From Chitinivibrionales bacterium (GTDB taxonomy: Bacteria; Fibrobacterota; Chitinivibrionia; Chitinivibrionales; WJKA01): DNA of 35,134 nucleotides. The stretch spans positions 1-35,134 of the forward strand of contig WJLZ01000008.1 in assembly GCA_014728215.1 (NCBI GenBank), read 5' to 3'. The number at the start of each line of letters is the position of its first letter. The first letter of the stretch is position 1. Below, in pieces: positions 8,105 to 32,066 of this stretch. The translations under genes and the position numbers were made by a program. The notes beneath the pieces were generated by a model. It ran no database searches and had not been told where the DNA came from. It worked only from the letters and a program-made list of their open reading frames with translations.

Positions 8105-9913
8105 ATGAGCACCAAGGGAAAAGTCGTCGGTATCGTATCCAACCTCGTTACCATTGAAGTTGACGGTCCGGTCGGGCAGAACGAAATCTGCTATATCGAC
8201 CTGAAGGGCGTCAACCTCATGTCCGAGGTGATCAAGATTACCGGCAATAAAGCATTTGTACAGGTATTCGAGAGCACCCGCGGCCTTTATGTGGGATGTG
8301 AAGCCGAGTTTACCGGAAGAATGCTTGAAGTGGTTATGGGACCGGGGATGCTCTCGAGAAACTATGACGGCTTGCAGAACGATCTGAATAAAATGGCCGA
8401 TGTATTCCTGAAACGGGGAGAATACACAGCGCCGATCGATACCGGAAAGAAATGGGATTTCAAGCCCCTTGGCAAGGAGGGTGATGAAGTCAGTGCCGGT
8501 GAATGGATCGGCGAGGTCCAGGAAGGCTGGATCGCTCATAAAATCATGGTCCCCTTTACTTTCAAGGGTATCGGCAAGCTCAAGTCGATTGTTTCCCAGG
8601 GAGAATATACGGTCGAGGACACGATCGCGGTTGCGGTTGATGAAGACGGCAATGAGCAGAAGTTGACCATGACCATGCGGTGGCCGGTGAAAGTTGAAGT
8701 GAGTGCCTATAAAGAGAAGCCCCGTCCATTCAAGGTCATGGAGACCGGCGTACGGACGATCGATACGCTCAATCCCATGATGGAAGGCGGGACCGGTTTT
8801 ATCCCCGGACCTTTCGGATGCGGCAAAACGGTGCTTCAGCATTTGATCTCAAAATATGCCGAAGCCGATCTGATTGTGCTCGTTGCCTGTGGTGAGCGTG
8901 CCAACGAGGTGGTTGAAATCTTTACTGAGTTTCCCGAACTCGACGACCCCAGAACCGGCAGAAAACTGATGGAGCGTACTATTATAATATGTAATACATC
9001 GAACATGCCGGTCGCGGCCCGTGAGGCTTCGGTCTATACGGGGATGACAATCGCCGAGTATTACCGCATGATGGGCCTGAAGGTGTTGCTTCTTGCCGAC
9101 TCGACCTCACGGTGGGCCCAGGCGCTGCGTGAGATGTCAAACCGTATGGAAGAACTTCCCGGACCGGACGCTTTCCCCATGGACCTTCCTGCAATCGTCT
9201 CGAGTTTCTATTCCCGCGCCGGATTTGTGTACCTCAATAACGGACAGAGCGGATCGATTACCTTTATCGGAACGGTCAGCCCTGCCGGAGGTAACTTAAA
9301 AGAACCGGTTACCGAGTCGACCAAAAAAGCGGCCCGGGCATTCTATGCCCTTGCTCAGCCCCGCGCCGACAGTAAGCGGTATCCCGCAATCGATCCTGTC
9401 GACAGCTACTCCAAGTATCTGGAGTATCAGGAAGTTATCGACTACATGGATAAGCATCTTGAAAAAGGATGGATCAACAAAGTACTGAAGCTGAAAGATA
9501 TTCTTCTCAGAGGAAAAGAGGCGCAGGATCAGATCAATATTCTTGGTGATGACGGCGTTCCTATCGAGTATCATATCCTGTTCAACAAATCGGAACTCAT
9601 CGATTTCATTATCCTTCAGCAGGACGGATTCGACAAGGTCGATGCATCGACACCCATTGGGCGTCAGCAATATGTGGCAAACAAGATTCTCGATATCTGC
9701 GACAGCTCCTTTGATTTTGAGAATTTTGAAAATGTCACCACCTATTTCAAAAAAGTAATCAATATTATGAAACAGATGAATTATCAGGAATTCCAGAACG
9801 AGAAATTCAAAGAACTGGAAAAAGAGCTGGATGAGCTGCTTGCAAAACGGCAGGTAGATGAGAGCGGGGAACAAGCGGAACCCGCGCTTGCCGAGAAGGA
9901 GGGAGAGCAATGA
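8105..9913 (+). CDS. atpA: V-type ATP synthase catalytic subunit A
   Basis: The protein has 602 residues, within the family norm. An N-terminal beta-barrel (GKVVGIVSNLVTIEVDGPV) is followed by the non-homologous bulge domain specific to V-type A subunits. The P-loop GPFGCGKT lies at residues 235-242, then VACGERANEV and LLADSTSRWAQALRE, and a helical C-terminal domain follows. These are the complete nucleotide-binding and catalytic elements. The ATG at 8105 follows a clear GGAGG. The stop overlaps the atpB start (ATGA), which indicates translational coupling. The subunit hydrolyses or makes ATP in the A3B3 head on the cytoplasmic side. Confidence 0.97.
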   Translation: MSTKGKVVGIVSNLVTIEVDGPVGQNEICYIDLKGVNLMSEVIKITGNKAFVQVFESTRGLYVGCEAEFTGRMLEVVMGPGMLSRNYDGLQNDLNKMADVFLKRGEYTAPIDTGKKWDFKPLGKEGDEVSAGEWIGEVQEGWIAHKIMVPFTFKGIGKLKSIVSQGEYTVEDTIAVAVDEDGNEQKLTMTMRWPVKVEVSAYKEKPRPFKVMETGVRTIDTLNPMMEGGTGFIPGPFGCGKTVLQHLISKYAEADLIVLVACGERANEVVEIFTEFPELDDPRTGRKLMERTIIICNTSNMPVAAREASVYTGMTIAEYYRMMGLKVLLLADSTSRWAQALREMSNRMEELPGPDAFPMDLPAIVSSFYSRAGFVYLNNGQSGSITFIGTVSPAGGNLKEPVTESTKKAARAFYALAQPRADSKRYPAIDPVDSYSKYLEYQEVIDYMDKHLEKGWINKVLKLKDILLRGKEAQDQINILGDDGVPIEYHILFNKSELIDFIILQQDGFDKVDASTPIGRQQYVANKILDICDSSFDFENFENVTTYFKKVINIMKQMNYQEFQNEKFKELEKELDELLAKRQVDESGEQAEPALAEKEGEQ

Positions 9914-11229
9914 AGACGAAGGCTTTTCAGAAGATATACACAAAAATCGAAAATATCACCAAGGCGACCTGTACGGTTGAAGCCGAGGGGATTACCAACG
10001 AAGAGATGGCCTATGTGGACAACCGTCCGGCCCAGGTGGTGAAAATCAACGGAAAATTCATTACCCTTCAGATTTTCCCCGGCACCCAGGGCATTGCCAC
10101 CAATGCCGAGGTTGTTTTTACCGGCAAGCCGCCTACAATCAAGGTGAGCGATGAATTGCGGGGACGGTTTTTCAATGCCTACGGCAAGCCTATCGACGGT
10201 GGTCCTGAGGTAGATGGTGATGAACGGGAAATCGGCGGGCCGTCGGTTAACCCGGTGCGGAGAAAACAGCCCTCGGAGCTGATCGCTACCGGTATCGCCG
10301 GTATCGACCTGAATAATACTCTTGTGACCGGGCAGAAGATTCCTTTCTTTGCCGATCCCGACCAGCCTTTTAATCAGGTTATGGCCGATGTTGCCTTGCG
10401 GGCAAAGGCGGATGTTATCATTCTTGGCGGAATGGGAATGTCCAATGATGATTACCTTTATTACAAGAGCGTTTTCGACAACGCCGGTGCCCTTGACCGT
10501 ATTATTTCGTTCATGAACACCACCGAAGATCCGCCGGTGGAACGTCTTCTGGTGCCCGATATGTGTCTCACCGCGGCCGAATACTTTGCAACCGAAAAAA
10601 ATTACAAAGTGCTCACGCTGCTGACCGATATGACACTCTTCGCCGATGCGCTCAGTATCGTGTCGAACCGTATGGACCAGATACCATCAAAGGACAGTAT
10701 GCCGGGATCACTCTATTCCGATCTGGCGAAAATTTACGAAAAGGCGGTGCAGTTCCCGGATGGCGGCTCGATCACGATTATCGCGGTCACCACTCTCAGC
10801 GGCGGCGATATCACCCATGCCATTCCCGATAATACAGGATATATTACTGAGGGACAGTTGTTTTTGCGGCGGGATACCGATATCGGTAAGGTTATTGTGG
10901 ACCCTTTCCGGAGTCTGTCGCGGCTGAAACAGCTTGTTATCGGCAAGAAAACCAGAGAAGACCATCCGCAGGTCATGAACGCCTGTGTCCGTCTCTTTGC
11001 CGATGCCGCCAATGCAAAGACAAAGCTTGAAAACGGTTTCGATCTCACCGATTATGACAAACGGTGTCTGGATTATGCAAAGGATTATTCCAAAGAATTG
11101 CTTGCTATCGATATTAATGTGGATGTTGATACAATGCTTGATACCGGATGGGAACTCTTTTCGAAATACTTCTCCAAAGAAGAAGTTGGTCTTAAGCAGG
11201 AGATGGTAGACAAGTACTGGAAAAATTAA
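9910..11229 (+). CDS. atpB: V-type ATP synthase subunit B (regulatory nucleotide-binding subunit)
   Basis: The protein has 439 residues. It resembles subunit A in layout but has DPDQPFNQ where the P-loop would be, as expected for the non-catalytic B subunit. Recognisable blocks are FFNAYGKPIDGGP, TGIAGIDLNNTLVTGQKIP, LLTDMTLFADALSIVSNRMDQ (residues near 236-256) and YITEGQLFLRRD. It alternates with A in the hexameric head. The ATG at 9910 overlaps the atpA stop by four bases and is preceded by GGAGGGAG. The gap to the next subunit gene is unusually long for this operon and contains a repeat element. Confidence 0.97.
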   Translation: MKTKAFQKIYTKIENITKATCTVEAEGITNEEMAYVDNRPAQVVKINGKFITLQIFPGTQGIATNAEVVFTGKPPTIKVSDELRGRFFNAYGKPIDGGPEVDGDEREIGGPSVNPVRRKQPSELIATGIAGIDLNNTLVTGQKIPFFADPDQPFNQVMADVALRAKADVIILGGMGMSNDDYLYYKSVFDNAGALDRIISFMNTTEDPPVERLLVPDMCLTAAEYFATEKNYKVLTLLTDMTLFADALSIVSNRMDQIPSKDSMPGSLYSDLAKIYEKAVQFPDGGSITIIAVTTLSGGDITHAIPDNTGYITEGQLFLRRDTDIGKVIVDPFRSLSRLKQLVIGKKTREDHPQVMNACVRLFADAANAKTKLENGFDLTDYDKRCLDYAKDYSKELLAIDINVDVDTMLDTGWELFSKYFSKEEVGLKQEMVDKYWKN

Positions 11230-11235
11230 AGAAAA

Positions 11236-11307
11236 TTGGAGTTATGGAGTAATGGAGTGATTATTTGAATGTGCCGGTACTCCAGCACTCCACTATTCAA
11301 TAGTCCA
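11236..11307. repeat. GAGT-heptad inverted-repeat element, copy 1 (between atpB and atpD)
   Basis: The left arm reads TTGGAGTTATGGAGTAATGG and a little further. The right arm (about 11279-11307) carries the approximate complement, with ACTCC, CACTCC and ATTC units. The two arms could fold into an imperfect stem of about 25 bp. The element fills most of the 105-base gap between subunits B and D. A related copy follows atpK, and a half copy lies near 33182. Confidence 0.6.
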
Positions 11308-11334
11308 TTTTTCCCATTTCATACGGATTCATAG

Positions 11335-11937
11335 ATGGCAATAAAATTTCAATACAACAAGACATCGCTTCAGCAATTACAAAAGGAGTTGAAGGTTCGG
11401 CTTAATGCATTGCCGACCCTTCAGGCAAAGGAATCGGCGCTTCGGCTGGAAGTTAAGAAGGCCAAAGCCGAAGTGACTGAGATCGAAGAAAGGCTTGAGA
11501 AAAATGCCAAACAGATCGCTCCCACCCATCGTTTATGGGTAGAGTTCCCCGACCGTCTCATATCCATAACCGATGTTTCGCTTGATATTAAAAAGATAGC
11601 GGGGGTAAAGACGCCCATATTCAACGATGTGAAATTTGAGGTGGAACGGCTGAGTCTTTTCCTGCAGCCCTGGTGGATCCCGAGTGGACTCGAGCTTCTC
11701 AAGGATATTGCCCGGTTGAAAATTGAAAAAGAGGTTGTTCTTAAAAAAGTCGATATTCTTGAGTATGCCCGAAAAAAAACGACCCAGAAGGTGAACCTTT
11801 ACGAAAAGGTGCAGATTCCCAGCTATGAGGAAGCGATTTTAAAAATCAAACGTTTTCTGGAAGACGAAGAGAATCTGGCAAAGTCGTCACAAAAAATCCT
11901 GAAAAACAAAATCGCGGCAACGGAGGCGACGGCATGA
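11335..11937 (+). CDS. atpD: V-type ATP synthase subunit D (central rotor shaft)
   Basis: The 200-residue protein is almost entirely helical: long N- and C-terminal heptad-rich helices (KTSLQQLQKELKVRL at the start, ARKKTTQKVNLYEKVQIP near the end) flank a short middle part. This is the antiparallel coiled-coil shaft that turns inside the A3B3 head. The ATG at 11335 has no convincing ribosome-binding site, in contrast to atpA, atpB and atpK. The repeat element immediately upstream may have displaced it. The stop overlaps the start of subunit I by four bases. Confidence 0.93.
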   Translation: MAIKFQYNKTSLQQLQKELKVRLNALPTLQAKESALRLEVKKAKAEVTEIEERLEKNAKQIAPTHRLWVEFPDRLISITDVSLDIKKIAGVKTPIFNDVKFEVERLSLFLQPWWIPSGLELLKDIARLKIEKEVVLKKVDILEYARKKTTQKVNLYEKVQIPSYEEAILKIKRFLEDEENLAKSSQKILKNKIAATEATA

Positions 11938-13829
11938 TTGTTCCAATGAAAAAATTATCCCTCTTGCTTTACCATAAAGAAAAAGAGACCTTTCTTACGT
12001 CGTTGCAGGACCTTGGTGTTGTCCATGTGGTTGTCAATCCGGAAGCATCGTCGGAGATACTGGCGGAAAAGCAACTGGTGATCAAGGATGCCGAACGGGT
12101 TTTTCGGGCGCTCAAGCACCATGGGGCGGCCGAGAATGTTTCGCTTCCTCAGGCAAAGGACCTTTCGGCAGGGGAAGTCATTTCCCGCTTTGAAAAACTG
12201 GAAAATGAACGGGATACGGTCGACTCCCGGATACAGGCCATGAGGAAAAATATCACTGCACTCGAACCCTGGGGAGATTTCGATCCCGATTCGATCGGGA
12301 AGCTTACCGATCGGGATATTATTCTCCGGTTTTATGAATGTAACGAAAAGAAATTCGAAGAAATAAAAAGCGGCATTCCTTCCATGGAAGTCGTTTCACG
12401 CGGGGGAAGTACTGTTTACTTTCTGGTTATTGGCCGTGGAAAAGTCGAGTCCGTTGATGCCGATGAAGTACTGCTTCCGTCCATGTCGCTGACCAATGCA
12501 CAGAAACAGCTTGAGAACCTGGAGCAGGAAAAAAGCAAAATCCATGATTCGTTCAATAAATTGACCGCCTATACCGATGTTTTATCTTCTTTTCTGGCCA
12601 AACAGCAGTGCGGTCGCGATCTTGAGGCTGCCAGAATCAGTATGGAAGGTTCGGTTGAGGGACGGGTTGTATCATTGAACGGATGGGTCCCCCACGATAA
12701 AGAGAAAAATGTTGCCGAATTTCTGAATGATTTTCCGGCGTGGTACACTTTTGAGAATCCTTCTCCGGATGATACCATTCCGGTCAAATTGACTAACGGA
12801 AAATTTTCCATGCTCTTCGAGCCGATTGCAAAGATGCGGTCGTTACCCGATTATTTCGAACTCGATCCCACGCCCTTTTTTGCGCCCTTTTTTGCCCTCT
12901 TTTTCGGTCTCTGTTTTGCCGATGTCGGGTATGGTGCTATACTGGCAACGCTGGGATTTATCGCTTCACGGAAAGTACCGGTAAAATTCAAACGCTATAC
13001 CACGCTCGTAACCATTCTGGGTGTTTTTGCTATTATCTGCGGTATGTTTCTCAATACCTTTTTCGGTCATCCGATATTTTCCGTCCCTGGTTATGAAAAT
13101 GCCTTTTTTGAATCGGGAGCCTTTTTAGCGCCCCTCAGTGCGGTGAAGACGGAAACCGGCACCTATTTCCCGGCCATTCCCCTCTCTCTCTATGTGGGGA
13201 TTCTGCAACTTCTTATCGGTATGGGCATGCGGGCCTATAACAGGGCTCATTATGGAACGATAGTGCATGCAATCGATCCTGTCGCGACGATGACCATGAC
13301 CATTGGCGTAACGATCTTTTTGGTAAAAATAAATTTCATGGAGCTTCAAACGTTTTCCCTCTGGGCTTTTCCCCTGGGTCAAATGATTGCATTGCTTCCC
13401 AAGAATATCGAATGGATTATTGCCGGTTCCGGCCTGGCGCTTCTGATGTTTTTTAATAATCCCGAAAAAGGACTCGGGCTTCGGCTGCCGCTCGGGATAT
13501 ACAGTTTATACAATTTTGCCACCGGGATTATGGGAGACGGTCTTTCCTATTTGCGATTGTTTGCCCTAGGACTTGCCGGCGGACTTTTAGGCGCTGCTTT
13601 CAATCAGATCGCTTTTATGCTCGTTATGAAAGACGGTGCTGTACAGCTCGCTTCTCCAATGATAATATTTACAATTCTTATTCTGATCGCCGGACATGGC
13701 ATTAATTTTGTGCTGGCGCTTATCGGATGTTTTGTTCATCCTTTGCGTTTGACATTTGTGGAATTTTACAAAAATGTCGATTTTAAAGGCGGTGCGCCCG
13801 AATATTCACCTTTAGCGAATTTACAATGA
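11934..13829 (+). CDS. atpI: V-type ATP synthase subunit I (membrane stator, a-subunit homologue)
   Basis: The protein has 631 residues. The N-terminal half (to about 300) is soluble and coiled-coil rich, and starts MIVPMKKLSLLLYHKEKE as usual for the family. The C-terminal half has about seven to eight membrane helices. The segment SYLRLFALGLAGG contains Arg 541, matching the essential arginine of the ion half-channels, and PLRLTFVEFYKN near the end is also typical. It anchors the peripheral stalk and forms the ion path against the K ring. The ATG overlaps the subunit D stop. Confidence 0.95.
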   Translation: MIVPMKKLSLLLYHKEKETFLTSLQDLGVVHVVVNPEASSEILAEKQLVIKDAERVFRALKHHGAAENVSLPQAKDLSAGEVISRFEKLENERDTVDSRIQAMRKNITALEPWGDFDPDSIGKLTDRDIILRFYECNEKKFEEIKSGIPSMEVVSRGGSTVYFLVIGRGKVESVDADEVLLPSMSLTNAQKQLENLEQEKSKIHDSFNKLTAYTDVLSSFLAKQQCGRDLEAARISMEGSVEGRVVSLNGWVPHDKEKNVAEFLNDFPAWYTFENPSPDDTIPVKLTNGKFSMLFEPIAKMRSLPDYFELDPTPFFAPFFALFFGLCFADVGYGAILATLGFIASRKVPVKFKRYTTLVTILGVFAIICGMFLNTFFGHPIFSVPGYENAFFESGAFLAPLSAVKTETGTYFPAIPLSLYVGILQLLIGMGMRAYNRAHYGTIVHAIDPVATMTMTIGVTIFLVKINFMELQTFSLWAFPLGQMIALLPKNIEWIIAGSGLALLMFFNNPEKGLGLRLPLGIYSLYNFATGIMGDGLSYLRLFALGLAGGLLGAAFNQIAFMLVMKDGAVQLASPMIIFTILILIAGHGINFVLALIGCFVHPLRLTFVEFYKNVDFKGGAPEYSPLANLQ

Positions 13830-22303: not shown

Positions 22304-24043
22304 ATGACTGTAAATAACGAAGAATTCTATCTCCCTGCTGTTGGGGAAAGAATCGGAAATTTGAAGATAACGGGGACCATAGCTTCGGGTGGTATGTCGA
22401 TTGTTTTCAAGGCGCTGCATGAGGAGCTGGAAGTCTTTCGGGCGCTTAAAATCCTCAAACCGGGGCATAAGCCGGAGAGCAGGAAAAGAATACAGACCGA
22501 AGCCAAAATCGCAGCCAATCTGAAACATCCCAATATTGTTCAGATCTACGGTGCATCATTATGGAGCGGTACACTGCCGTATATTGAAATGGAGTATGTT
22601 GACGGTATTTCTGCATATACATTTATTGCAAAAGCCGGAAGGGTCCCCTGGATTGTCGCTGCATCCATTACAGCAATAGTGTGCAGAGCATTAAAATATG
22701 CTCAAGAACGGAATATGACCGTCTATGGCAAAAATTATCAGGGACTCGTTCACCGGGACATAAAGCCGGCCAATATTCTCCTGTCTAATTCCGGTGAAGT
22801 AAAACTGGCGGATTTTGGAATCGCGTTACCGGGAACTGAAAGTATCCATACTACCGGGGCAACAGTTATGGGGACAGCTCCTTATATCAGTCCCGAGCAG
22901 ATTGACGGCAAACGTCTTGACCGTCGCACCGACATTTATTCTCTGGGTGCAGTGCTGTATGAAATGATAACCGGGACAAAGGCTTTTCCGGAGAAAGCAA
23001 TGTCCAAGCTGATCCGGGACAAGCTGCAAGGCTCCTATTTTCCTGTTCAGGGATTGGAACCCACGCTGCCCTCCGCAATGGTTCAGGCTATCGACAAAAG
23101 CCTTCATCCGGAAAGAGAAAAGAGATTCTCCTCTGCTTCCGAATTCGAAAGTATACTTGAATCATGTATTGCTGCAGAATCCGATTTGCCCGTCGATGAT
23201 ATAGTTTCTCGATATATAAAGAACAGAGAAGAAAAATCGGTGACTCAGACAATAGTCAATGCCGGCCGTGTACAATCAAGAAAAATTTTCCTTCCGGCGG
23301 TTATTGTAAGCGCCGGTACTCTCCTCGTTCTTGGAATACTGGCTTTTCATTTTTTCAAAGATGAAATTTCATCAGGACCTTCTTCCGAAGGAGTCTCTCC
23401 AGCCATTAAAGAAAGCATTGGAAAGAATAAGGTAAATAAAGGAGTGCCGGCGACAAAGAAGAGTGTCCGCCCCCGAAAAGAAGTGTTGATCGATTCTGTA
23501 AATGATACCACTGCCGCAAAAGAAATTCCTGAGCACTCAGAACCAAAGCTCGATCATGGAATAAAGGCTTTTCATAAAGGCGATTACCGGAAGGCTATTG
23601 ATATCCTGCAGAATTTTACGGTGAGTCAAACCGGTCACGATTCCGAAAACAGGATACGCTTATTGCTTTTTGAATCATATCTGAAAGTCGGGGACTATAA
23701 GAATGCAAAGCAACTTTCGATAAACAAATCTATTGACGATGGGTATTTTTATCTATTAAAAGGAAAGCTTTATCATGCTCTGGGCGACACTAAGCCGGCG
23801 GAAAAATATTTTTTGAAAGCACAATCAACTTCTTCAATAATGGGGCCGAAAGTGCTCCCTGAAGCGGTCTATTTCTGGGCGCTTAATCGCGATGTGGCGT
23901 ATAAAAAGAAACCGAATGTGGAAAACAGAAACAAAATGATACTGGCCTGGAAAAAATTCCATCAGGCTTTTTGCAATCGTTCCGGCCATGCCTCACATTG
24001 TTCTGAAGCCAGGGAGCGACTGAAAGAACTGAATGCGCTCTAA
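22304..24043 (+). CDS. Membrane-anchored Ser/Thr protein kinase with TPR-like C-terminus
   Basis: The protein has 579 residues. The kinase domain (about 17-290) is complete: glycine loop IASGGMSIVF, Lys49 (ALKIL), catalytic loop HRDIKPAN (150-157), DFG at 170-172, and SPEQ in place of APE. A single membrane segment follows at about 327-347. The outer part has a Lys/Ser/Pro linker and then TPR-like helices (AFHKGDYRKAIDIL, YLKVGDYKNAKQL, LYHALGDTKPAEKYFLKA). It is read in the opposite direction to the flanking trp genes and ends 10 bases from the trpE stop. Cytoplasmic kinase with periplasmic TPR sensor is the likely topology. The signal and targets are unknown. Confidence 0.93.
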   Translation: MTVNNEEFYLPAVGERIGNLKITGTIASGGMSIVFKALHEELEVFRALKILKPGHKPESRKRIQTEAKIAANLKHPNIVQIYGASLWSGTLPYIEMEYVDGISAYTFIAKAGRVPWIVAASITAIVCRALKYAQERNMTVYGKNYQGLVHRDIKPANILLSNSGEVKLADFGIALPGTESIHTTGATVMGTAPYISPEQIDGKRLDRRTDIYSLGAVLYEMITGTKAFPEKAMSKLIRDKLQGSYFPVQGLEPTLPSAMVQAIDKSLHPEREKRFSSASEFESILESCIAAESDLPVDDIVSRYIKNREEKSVTQTIVNAGRVQSRKIFLPAVIVSAGTLLVLGILAFHFFKDEISSGPSSEGVSPAIKESIGKNKVNKGVPATKKSVRPRKEVLIDSVNDTTAAKEIPEHSEPKLDHGIKAFHKGDYRKAIDILQNFTVSQTGHDSENRIRLLLFESYLKVGDYKNAKQLSINKSIDDGYFYLLKGKLYHALGDTKPAEKYFLKAQSTSSIMGPKVLPEAVYFWALNRDVAYKKKPNVENRNKMILAWKKFHQAFCNRSGHASHCSEARERLKELNAL

Positions 24044-28394: not shown

Positions 28395-31300
28395 ATGAAT
28401 TCAAATAAGAAAAATAACCAAAACACAAACGACAAATTAATGCCGGATCAGAAGCCTGAGCGTTATATTGGGCAAAAAAGCAGTCTTTCTATTGCCGGTA
28501 TAAATAAAACGATTCGCCTCGATCCCTATGAGGCACCTTCATCCATTCATGAAAATTCTTCGGAAAAAACCTCCCAGTCTGTTGAATCACTTCATATTCC
28601 GGAAAATATCCCGCAAAGCTTAAAATCGCTTCGCTATGAAATTATCCGGGAAATCGACAAAGGAGGGATGAGCAAAATATTTGAGGCCCGGGACCAGGAT
28701 TTAAATCGAACCATTGCACTCAAGAAGCTTATTGATGATTCCGATCCCAGGTGGCGAAGGCGGCTTATTGAAGAGGCGCAGATTGCCGGGCAGCTCGAAC
28801 ATCCGAACATTGTACCTGTCCACGAGTTGGGAATCAGTCGTGACGGCTCTCTTTTTCTCACCATGAAAATGATTAAAGGGACAAGCCTCAAGGATGTTTT
28901 TGAACAGCTTCGGAATGTTCGAAAAGGTGAAAAGTCGCCCTGGAAGCGGGGGAAGCTGCTCAGCATCTTTATCAGCATCTGCAATGCAATTGCTTTTGCC
29001 CATCACCGGGGCGTCATTCATCGCGATCTGAAACCCTCGAATATAATGCTTGGTGATTTCGGCGAAGTGCTTGTGATGGACTGGGGGCTGGCCAAGGTCA
29101 TAGGAAAGTACAAGGCCCGAAGAAAAAAAAGCAACCCGGCGCCGGAGTACGCCCAGACCCGTCAAAGTGATACCCGGTATGATCTTGCCGACAAGAAATA
29201 TGTTCGTCATTTTGAAAACCTTCGGGCGCAGGGGGTATCTGATGATGAAACGATTCATGGGAGTGTCCTGGGGACCCCGGCCTATGTCTCTCCCGAACAG
29301 GCGCGGGGTGAGATAGATAATATCGATGAGCAGAGCGATATCTATTCTCTGGGCGCTATTCTGTATGAAATGGTTACACTACGGCGGCCGGTTGAAAAAG
29401 ATGATGTCCGGGAGATGCTTCTGGATATAAGTTGCGGTGTATTAATTCCTCCCGATCAGCGGGCGCCGGAGCGCAGTATCCCGCGGGAGCTGATAGCAAT
29501 CATTAATAAAGCGCTCGCGCCGAGAAAAGAGTACCGCTATGCCGATGTCCTTCATCTGCAGAAGGATGTTCAATTGTTTCTGGATAATAAAAAGGTAAGT
29601 GTGAAGCACGACAGTATCTGGGAAACTGCAGTCAAAACGGTCAAACGGAACCGCAAAACGAGCATTGTGTCCGGTATTGCGGCAGGCGCACTTTTTACTG
29701 TTATTACAATTTCAATTATAATAAACAAACAGGCGCATCGCCTTACGGAAGAAGCTTTTAACGGTTTTACAAAAGAGCACCAGGCGCGTGAGGCAATGGT
29801 CCGTAAAGACCTGCAGGAACGATCCCCGGTGTGGAAACTGATTTTGAATGAAGATTTTTCGGACAGCGGCTGGAAAGATGAATTCGATATTATTTACGGA
29901 AGATATATAAGCCGCAACGGGAAAGTTTCCTTTCAAACGCTCGATCCGGATTATGAGCGTCGGGATGGAGTTTTATTGCTTCGTAACGGTACTCCTCAGG
30001 TGCTGGCTGTCAGACAATCGATGAAAGGAAATATCGCCCTGGAATTCGATTGTCGCCTGGTATCCGAACATGTTAATTCAATCGGGTGCTTTTTTGACGG
30101 TGTCCGGCAGAATAATCCGAAAAATGTCGCCTACTCGGGTTACCGAATCGAATATGGAGGATATGACAACAGTAAAAATTTCATTACCCGTGGAGGACAG
30201 ATAATCTGGGAGGAATTCGACTCTCCGCTGATTAATGACCATTGGTATCATGTCAGAGCCGAACGAATCGGAAAACGTATCAAACTGTTTGTTGATGGTG
30301 ATCTGGTTATTGATGTTATCGACAGCAGTCAGATTTACGGCGCCTATCAGGGAACTGTCGGTCTTTTCAATTATGGCTCTCATGTGGTGTTTGATAATGT
30401 CCGGGTTTACAGGATGGGGCCTGCGATCAGAGAAAACCTTCTGGATGTAGCCAATAGGTATGTGCATGAAAATGACTATGGGACCGCAAAAAAAATCTAT
30501 ACCGATATTATTCAGTCAAATATCGACCCGAAACGGTTACATGCTGCAAGAAAAGGGCTGGTGCGTATTGAAAAAATAATCAACTTACGAAAAAAACTTC
30601 CCCATATAATTCGCAAACTTAACAATGAGCTGGTTGATGAATCCCCAATGGTGAATATCGTTAATAATGGTCTTTCACTGGATATATCGGGTAAAGTCGG
30701 TTTGTTGTCGCTCGAACCTTTACGGGGTCTGCCCTTTGTACAGCTTACCCTTACCGAGTGCATGCGTATTGAAAGTCTCGAACCGCTTCGGGGAATGCAA
30801 CTGGAGGAACTCAATTTATCGTATACCGGTTCATATAAAAATCTCGAACCGATTGCAGACGCACCGGTAAACAAGCTTGTAATGAATTATTCATCGGTGG
30901 AGGATTGCCGGCCGGTCGGACGCCTTCCGGTTACTCATCTGGAACTCTGTTTTTCGGATTGCAGCACATGGAATTTTCTATCCCGCCTTGATCTGGAAAT
31001 ATTGCGTATTAGCTGGGCTGATCTGGGCAATCTCGAATTGTTGCGTTCGATGCCATTGCGAAAGCTAACGGCATCTCACTGCAACATTGAAAATATCGGG
31101 GTATTAAAACAGATGCCTCTGGAGGAGTGCCACCTTGCGGGCAACCCAGTTTCCGATTTAACTCCTCTGGCCGATAAGCCACTGAGGGTGCTCGATATAA
31201 GTGAGACCGCCGTATCCGATCTTTCGCCGGTAAAAAAAATGCCTCTGAAAAAACTCAGATGCGCAAAAACTCCATTGAGAAGAATTAATGCATTAAAAAA

Positions 31301-32066
31301 TATTGAGGATCTCAGATATCTTGATATTTCATTTACCGGCATTTCCGCTATACGATCCCTGGAAGATCTTCCCCTCAGAGAGCTTCACATGGATTTCTGT
31401 CCTATATACAATTTTGAACCTCTGAAAAACATGCCGCTGAAAATCGTCGGGTGCGAAGGAATTCCACTTTCCCGGAAGAATATCGCTATCTTGAAAAACC
31501 TGCCCCTTAAAGAATTATCACTCTCACTCCTGGATCCTGCTTCATCTGCCCTAATCGATTCTGTGGAAGGGATCGGTTATATAAACGAACATCGCCGAGC
31601 ATACGTAAAAAAATTACTCCCTGCACTACAGGATACATCAAAAGTATTTACCCGGAACAATTCTCCGCTCTATGCATCAGGTAAGGTAAAGGGCGATACG
31701 CGTTATTTGGCTATTCCTGTAAGAATGACCTGGGAGGAGGCCCTCGCGTTTTGCAGGAAACACGGTGGCACATTGGCCTCGGCGGCATCAAATCTCGAAG
31801 TCTACAGGCTCAGTAATTATCTTAAAAATGTCTGTAAAGCAGGTACCCGCTATCATCTGGGGCTGCGAACAGTCCCGAACACTCATGAACTGCAAAATGC
31901 CGAGGGTAAAACCTGTACCTACGAGCGATGGGCGAGCAAAAATGTCCGGAAAAGAACCATGGAGAACCACCAGTCGGTTACCCTGACTTCCAGGGCTCGG
32001 CTGTATGATTTCCGGTGGGAACCGGGGGATAAATTCGAACGAGCGTATTTCATAATCGAATGGTGA
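28395..32066 (+). CDS. Receptor-like Ser/Thr kinase with LamG-like, leucine-rich-repeat and C-type-lectin-like domains
   Basis: The protein has 1,223 residues. After an 80-residue polar leader comes a kinase domain (about 81-395): glycine loop IDKGGMSKIF, Lys110 (IALKK), HRDLKPSN (209-216), and DWG (229-231) in place of DFG, as in many bacterial Hanks-type kinases of this style. A membrane helix lies at about 424-446. The outer part has a LamG/concanavalin-like sandwich (about 480-675, ending FDNVRVYRM), a short helical part, about a dozen leucine-rich repeats (about 750-1055, units like PLRGMQLEELNLS), and a C-terminal C-type-lectin-like domain (about 1098-1223, with TWEEALAFCRKHGGTLASA). 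The start has no strong ribosome-binding site. Function is probably sensing of an external ligand; substrates are unknown. Confidence 0.9.
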   Translation: MNSNKKNNQNTNDKLMPDQKPERYIGQKSSLSIAGINKTIRLDPYEAPSSIHENSSEKTSQSVESLHIPENIPQSLKSLRYEIIREIDKGGMSKIFEARDQDLNRTIALKKLIDDSDPRWRRRLIEEAQIAGQLEHPNIVPVHELGISRDGSLFLTMKMIKGTSLKDVFEQLRNVRKGEKSPWKRGKLLSIFISICNAIAFAHHRGVIHRDLKPSNIMLGDFGEVLVMDWGLAKVIGKYKARRKKSNPAPEYAQTRQSDTRYDLADKKYVRHFENLRAQGVSDDETIHGSVLGTPAYVSPEQARGEIDNIDEQSDIYSLGAILYEMVTLRRPVEKDDVREMLLDISCGVLIPPDQRAPERSIPRELIAIINKALAPRKEYRYADVLHLQKDVQLFLDNKKVSVKHDSIWETAVKTVKRNRKTSIVSGIAAGALFTVITISIIINKQAHRLTEEAFNGFTKEHQAREAMVRKDLQERSPVWKLILNEDFSDSGWKDEFDIIYGRYISRNGKVSFQTLDPDYERRDGVLLLRNGTPQVLAVRQSMKGNIALEFDCRLVSEHVNSIGCFFDGVRQNNPKNVAYSGYRIEYGGYDNSKNFITRGGQIIWEEFDSPLINDHWYHVRAERIGKRIKLFVDGDLVIDVIDSSQIYGAYQGTVGLFNYGSHVVFDNVRVYRMGPAIRENLLDVANRYVHENDYGTAKKIYTDIIQSNIDPKRLHAARKGLVRIEKIINLRKKLPHIIRKLNNELVDESPMVNIVNNGLSLDISGKVGLLSLEPLRGLPFVQLTLTECMRIESLEPLRGMQLEELNLSYTGSYKNLEPIADAPVNKLVMNYSSVEDCRPVGRLPVTHLELCFSDCSTWNFLSRLDLEILRISWADLGNLELLRSMPLRKLTASHCNIENIGVLKQMPLEECHLAGNPVSDLTPLADKPLRVLDISETAVSDLSPVKKMPLKKLRCAKTPLRRINALKNIEDLRYLDISFTGISAIRSLEDLPLRELHMDFCPIYNFEPLKNMPLKIVGCEGIPLSRKNIAILKNLPLKELSLSLLDPASSALIDSVEGIGYINEHRRAYVKKLLPALQDTSKVFTRNNSPLYASGKVKGDTRYLAIPVRMTWEEALAFCRKHGGTLASAASNLEVYRLSNYLKNVCKAGTRYHLGLRTVPNTHELQNAEGKTCTYERWASKNVRKRTMENHQSVTLTSRARLYDFRWEPGDKFERAYFIIEW

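Follow-up and report, generated by a model that had tools for sequence, protein, structure and literature searches.

A predicted receptor kinase with LamG-like, leucine-rich repeat and C-type-lectin-like sensor domains in Chitinivibrionales (Fibrobacterota)

The sensor parts of bacterial receptor kinases are known mostly as PASTA, TPR, WD40 and similar domains. The PknB/Stk1 PASTA kinases have an N-terminal PknB-like kinase, one transmembrane (TM) helix and a C-terminal extracytoplasmic sensor, and the main text of a survey of Planctomycetota describes single-span Ser/Thr kinases with periplasmic DUF1080, TPR, WD40 or SUMF1 domains, DUF1080 being given there as exclusively periplasmic (PMC11032199). 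Plant receptor-like kinases join an LRR or lectin sensor through one TM helix to a Ser/Thr kinase; a survey whose data set took in 884 bacterial genomes reported plant-like LRR receptor kinases outside plants in some eukaryotes only (PMC3268121). The 35,134-nucleotide stretch of DNA analysed here (the window; contig WJLZ01000008.1 of a Chitinivibrionales bacterium) encodes a protein that shares parts of each of these plans.

The gene, its kinase and its topology

The window protein is encoded by a single ORF of 1223 codons that starts with ATG and has no internal stop. From N- to C-terminus it contains a Hanks-type kinase, one TM helix, a LamG-like (DUF1080/CBM66-like) sandwich, a helical segment, 13 LRRs and a C-type-lectin-like domain (CTLD), and in Pfam its Pkinase, 3keto-disac_hyd/DUF1080, LRR_4 and Lectin_C matches all exceed their own cut-offs. 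The features are as follows.

28395..32066 (+), whole gene, kinase-TM-LamG-helical-LRR-CTLD; from the ORF list, with a 61% identical full-length orthologue in genome G001 and the order kept in six proteins of family f1
28395..28628 (+), N-terminal tail, residues 1-78, hydrophilic and poorly conserved (19-31% identity among homologues), no hydrophobic segment and no signal peptide seen
28629..29594 (+), PknB-like Hanks-type kinase, residues 79-400, with intact catalytic residues and a long activation loop; Pkinase E 1.9e-36, PknB best PDB sequence matches, motifs
29667..29723 (+), single TM helix, residues 425-443, with a basic flank towards the kinase; 19-residue Kyte-Doolittle mean of 2.29
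29736..29813 (+), predicted helical stalk past the membrane, residues 448-473; AlphaFold helix at ectodomain residues 2-28, partly of low confidence
29829..30422 (+), LamG-like beta-sandwich of DUF1080/CBM66 type, residues 479-676; PF06439 E 2e-9, levanase CBM66 by sequence (E 3.4e-4) and by Foldseek (E 9.5e-9)
30423..30629 (+), helical (TPR-like) segment joining sandwich and LRR, residues 677-745; AlphaFold helices at ectodomain 236-299, TPRs at the equivalent place in the C224 kinase
30735..31565 (+), 13 bacterial-type LRRs of 21-22 aa each, residues 781 to about 1057; repeat register, LRR_4 above cut-off, Foldseek matches to Roco and internalin LRRs
31689..32063 (+), CTLD without EPN/QPD or WND, residues 1099-1223; Lectin_C 34.1 bits (cut-off 22.6), model with Foldseek, motif scan

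The Pkinase match starts at residue 81, and the motifs ALK (K110), HRDLKPSN (D211), DWG (D229) and SPEQ supply the VAIK lysine, the HRD aspartate, the DFG aspartate (as DWG) and the APE region (as SPEQ), by which the domain is classed from its sequence as a Hanks-type (PknB-like) Ser/Thr kinase. The nearest solved kinase by sequence is Mycobacterium PknB, and an activation-loop threonine aligned with one of PknB is not shared by all paralogues. The whole genome has about 23 kinase genes. Another of Hanks type lies 4.3 kb upstream in the window (22304-24043, +; 579 aa, kinase-TM-short TPR), and positions 8105-13829 (+) carry V/A-type ATPase genes for the catalytic subunit and a 116-kDa-type subunit.

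Residues 425-443 are the sole helix of TM-level hydrophobicity, with the basic stretch KTVKRNRK just before them. The Kyte-Doolittle scan finds no second TM helix (the runner-up segment, at 1.25, is within the kinase) and the N-terminus does not look like a signal peptide, which gives an N-in, C-out topology. This strongly indicates that the PknB-like kinase would be cytoplasmic and about 780 residues periplasmic, with the C-terminus outside, as had been predicted. All six f1 proteins have one TM helix with a basic flank on the cytoplasmic side, and by sequence each would thus be a bacterial transmembrane receptor kinase, with a single inside-positive span between kinase and sensor. The genome has ten Omp85-type matches and therefore an outer membrane, so that the ectodomain should be periplasmic; the sensor most likely lies in the periplasm and not at the cell surface.

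The sensor domains

The PF06439 match covers residues 515-671 (38.2 bits, gathering cut-off 26.8), and the Laminin_G_3 model reaches only E 0.076. Not every f1 copy reaches this cut-off: L002, L013 and the second of L017 score 21-26.5 bits. The levanase CBM66 is matched both by plain sequence and by Foldseek against the PDB. The score and the predicted ConA-like sandwich fold place the domain in the DUF1080/3keto-disac_hyd family.

The 13 LRRs are consecutive and regular, with LRR_4 matched at residues 951-989 (E 1.5e-8). An AlphaFold model of the ectodomain (777 aa, built from a six-row alignment of natural homologues) has a mean pLDDT of 77.6, and its LRR solenoid is mostly above 90. In Foldseek against the PDB the LRR region is closest to LRRs of Roco proteins and internalins (E 4.9e-13); both the tandem 21-22-aa repeats and the modelled solenoid assign it to the bacterial, internalin-like class. 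A search of a viral fold library returned nothing beyond LRR and LamG look-alikes.

Lectin_C is matched at residues 1110-1200 (E 4.8e-8). The C-terminal part was weakly modelled in the full ectodomain run and was remodelled alone from an alignment of 12 CTLDs; the stand-alone model has a pLDDT of 82.5 and in Foldseek matches CLEC9A, mincle, CD23 and other CTLDs (E 1.5e-7, TM 0.73-0.82). The Lectin_C match is independent of that alignment because the window protein alone exceeds the Pfam cut-off. All six f1 proteins exceed the Lectin_C cut-off, which together with the modelled fold identifies the domain as C-type-lectin-like. The original prediction of a cytoplasmic Hanks-type kinase linked by a single membrane helix to three distinct folds is thus borne out by Pfam, the hydrophobicity scan and AlphaFold/Foldseek: in the models, the sandwich matched CBM66, the LRRs Roco and internalin, and the CTLD CLEC9A, so that both a sandwich and a lectin fold are predicted.

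The sugar-binding motifs of classical C-type lectins, EPN/QPD and WND, are absent from all nine kinase-linked CTLDs scanned, one of which is cut by a contig end; the nine include that of a second, apparently broken or misassembled copy in genome G014 (L036 3368-5386). Both motifs are kept in the free CTLDs of Fibrobacterota (3/3). It is therefore unlikely that the CTLD binds sugar in a calcium-dependent way and likelier that it binds a protein or motif, and a classical calcium-dependent sugar-binding lectin was set aside as improbable. To judge from the sequence, the domain is probably a protein- or motif-binding cap. Lectin_C is present in just 9 of 168 Fibrobacterota genomes, and in the genome studied here CTLDs are found only on the two four-domain kinases. 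A very long protein with many haemolysin-type calcium repeats (L052 3600-7142, -; genome G026) has CTLDs that do carry EPN and WND.

Relatives and inheritance of the layout

The four-domain order occurs in five further proteins in three genomes of one family (f1), with ectodomain identities of 28-57%; all four domains are present in every one of the six, though the sandwich is below the cut-off in three. One of the five is an old full-length paralogue in the same genome (C159, 34% identical). Among 60 relatives, close full-length matches are confined to two Chitinivibrionales (Fibrobacterota) bins of the same family: G001 has the orthologue together with its own version of the second paralogue, and G002 has a tandem pair of four-domain kinases (L017 4226-11554, -) that are 87 bases apart. 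Two paralogues are retained in each f1 genome and differ in LRR count, which makes them a natural test of the contribution of each domain.

A profile search with the ectodomain through 168 Fibrobacterota genomes extends the LamG-LRR-CTLD combination to two other families. G158 encodes a 1256-aa protein that can be read as kinase, TM, LamG-like region, LRR and CTLD in the same order. In G014 a protein whose 5' end is lost at a contig end (L036 7100-10069, -) has kinase, LamG, LRR and CTLD, the kinase and LamG not being separated by a membrane helix; by its sequence the sensor domains would be on the kinase side, which would be unexpected. The second G014 copy appears broken or misassembled and is left out of the counts of full proteins. 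The search for the same order thus succeeded, and the original description of kinase, TM helix and three outer folds was accurate as far as it went; it overlooked the helical segment, the paralogue and other relatives, and the G014 protein that has no TM helix. The four-domain layout is real, conserved and unusual in its sensor, and as it stands this is an anatomical finding.

Shorter layouts also occur. A groundwater bacterium (L023) has kinase-TM-LamG-LRR without a CTLD, and the genome studied here has a kinase-TM-LamG-TPR protein (C224). A Planctomycetota locus (L024 2621-5497, +) joins an AraC-type HTH DNA-binding part to a LamG-like-TPR unit with no evident TM helix, so that soluble regulators may make use of this unit as well. 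Genomes outside Fibrobacterota were covered by a single pattern-based scan, so the distribution there is a minimum estimate. The kinase-domain tree groups the six f1 proteins with L023 and the G014 protein in one clade (support 98/94), separate from the genome's remaining kinases; G158 and C224 are placed near this clade without firm support. As eight kinase domains share one supported clade, the layout is most likely inherited. The apparent intermediates C224 (LamG-TPR) and L023 (LamG-LRR) suggest, as the simplest history, an inherited kinase-TM-LamG core to which the LRR and then the CTLD would have been added stepwise.

Between orthologues the kinase is 76% identical, the LamG-like domain 64%, and the LRR and CTLD 55-58%, the least of the folded domains, which fits a receptor whose output is conserved while its recognition parts drift. 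The only conserved neighbour is valS, beside the single orthologue; neither the paralogue nor the G002 pair shares that location. Spread by plasmids was rejected, since tblastn with the ectodomain gave no match among 72,556 plasmids.

Possible function and comparison with known systems

We think it rather probable that the window protein is a single-pass inner-membrane sensor kinase, with a cytoplasmic kinase, a periplasmic sandwich-helical-LRR-CTLD ectodomain and ligand-triggered pairing. From the membrane outward the periplasmic part would consist, by fold prediction, of the CBM66/DUF1080-like sandwich, the short helical piece, the 13-repeat LRR solenoid and the CTLD cap, whose presumed role in binding a protein or motif follows from its missing motifs. 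A periplasmic ligand would most likely be bound by the CTLD and the curved face of the LRR, and perhaps also by the sandwich; candidates are a partner protein, a fragment of cell wall or exopolysaccharide, and an imported oligosaccharide. Binding might pair two receptors through the post-membrane stalk (residues 448-473, a possible dimer-coupling helix), and the paired kinases would then phosphorylate each other and, after that, proteins further down the pathway, in the manner of PknB-type receptor kinases. Such a receptor could have arisen from the commoner kinase-TM-DUF1080 type by gain of the LRR and then the CTLD, as the relatives suggest. Against the single-pass periplasmic sensor count, at the level of sequence, the G014 relative without a TM helix between kinase and LamG, the apparently soluble LamG-like-TPR protein of L024, the activation-loop threonine that is not universal, and valS as the sole conserved neighbour.

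What such a receptor would sense can be read in several ways. One plausible reading, which we hold with some reserve, is by analogy an envelope checkpoint or partner-protein receptor: the LRR and CTLD would bind the second paralogue or some other protein of the envelope, and the kinase would tune envelope growth as PknB and Stk1 do. In its favour, the pairing of an LRR with a CTLD that lacks sugar motifs points to protein binding, every f1 genome keeps two paralogues (in tandem in G002) and the kinase is PknB-like, but PASTA domains and a conserved envelope-gene neighbour are both absent. Somewhat unlikely, in our estimate, is a carbohydrate receptor kinase whose CBM66-like sandwich, and possibly CTLD, would bind a periplasmic oligosaccharide and turn on genes for its use or for polysaccharide attachment. 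The likeness of the sandwich to levanase CBM66 in sequence and structure speaks for it, PF06439 takes its name from carbohydrate-active members, and the Fibrobacterota relatives are polysaccharide degraders; yet the sugar motifs are missing from every kinase-linked CTLD scanned, no carbohydrate-use genes adjoin the window copy, and LamG-type sandwiches often have other ligands. The carbohydrate sensing originally proposed thus finds no support through the CTLD and keeps a possible route through the sandwich.

The companion proposal, a surface receptor for other cells, hosts or particles, fares worse. Its LRRs are of the type of internalins, which bind host proteins, and the ectodomain is long; but the many Omp85 matches indicate an outer membrane, nothing suggests export across it, and the single TM helix must sit in the inner membrane beside a kinase that uses ATP, which makes this reading very improbable. 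That unrelated genes were fused by chance or misassembly can practically be dismissed: the source is a fragmented draft genome of 229 contigs, but the fusion recurs in independent genomes (another bin, genus and family) and in the in-genome paralogue at 34% identity, and these homologues refute it.

Among described systems, the PASTA kinases differ in their sensor: the window protein has no PASTA match in Pfam and scores 219.8 bits against a cut-off of 450 for the Stk1/PknB equivalog, so that membership was rejected. The best NCBIfam match is chlamydial PknD (NF009651), on the kinase, and it was also rejected (231.9 bits against a cut-off of 839; outside the kinase only E 0.043). The nearest solved folds for its LRR and sandwich belong to internalin (surface proteins), Roco (a GTPase module) and levanase CBM66 (an enzyme module), none with a role as a kinase sensor. 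Plant LRR receptor-like kinases have the opposite order (signal peptide-LRR-TM-kinase), whereas the window protein is kinase-first with a C-terminal LRR of bacterial class and no signal peptide; membership among them was rejected, and the inverted topology agrees with the separate origin that had been proposed. In the literature searched, of which coverage is partial, no paper describing the kinase-TM-LamG-LRR-CTLD order was found, in line with the original impression that it is undescribed. The single-span kinases of Planctomycetota are the most similar in plan, with a cytoplasmic kinase, one TM helix and a periplasmic DUF1080 sandwich, and their SUMF1 (FGE-sulfatase) domain shares the C-type lectin fold with the CTLD; LRR and lectin domains go unmentioned in the survey's main text, whereas the window protein has an LRR and a Lectin_C-type CTLD after DUF1080 in one chain (PMC11032199). 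As far as that main text goes, kinase-TM-DUF1080 is already known in Planctomycetota and the LRR and CTLD extension is new. A stable LRR and CTLD family offers a bacterial system in which to study the switching of a Hanks kinase by LRR and lectin-fold sensors, a question pursued mostly in plants and animals. We tentatively suggest, as something close to an even prospect, a vertically inherited and previously undescribed class of receptor kinases in which CBM-like sandwich, LRR solenoid and CTLD cap would function as a single composite sensor in the periplasm; such a class would be a counterpart in bacteria, independent and reversed in topology, to the LRR and lectin receptor kinases of plants.
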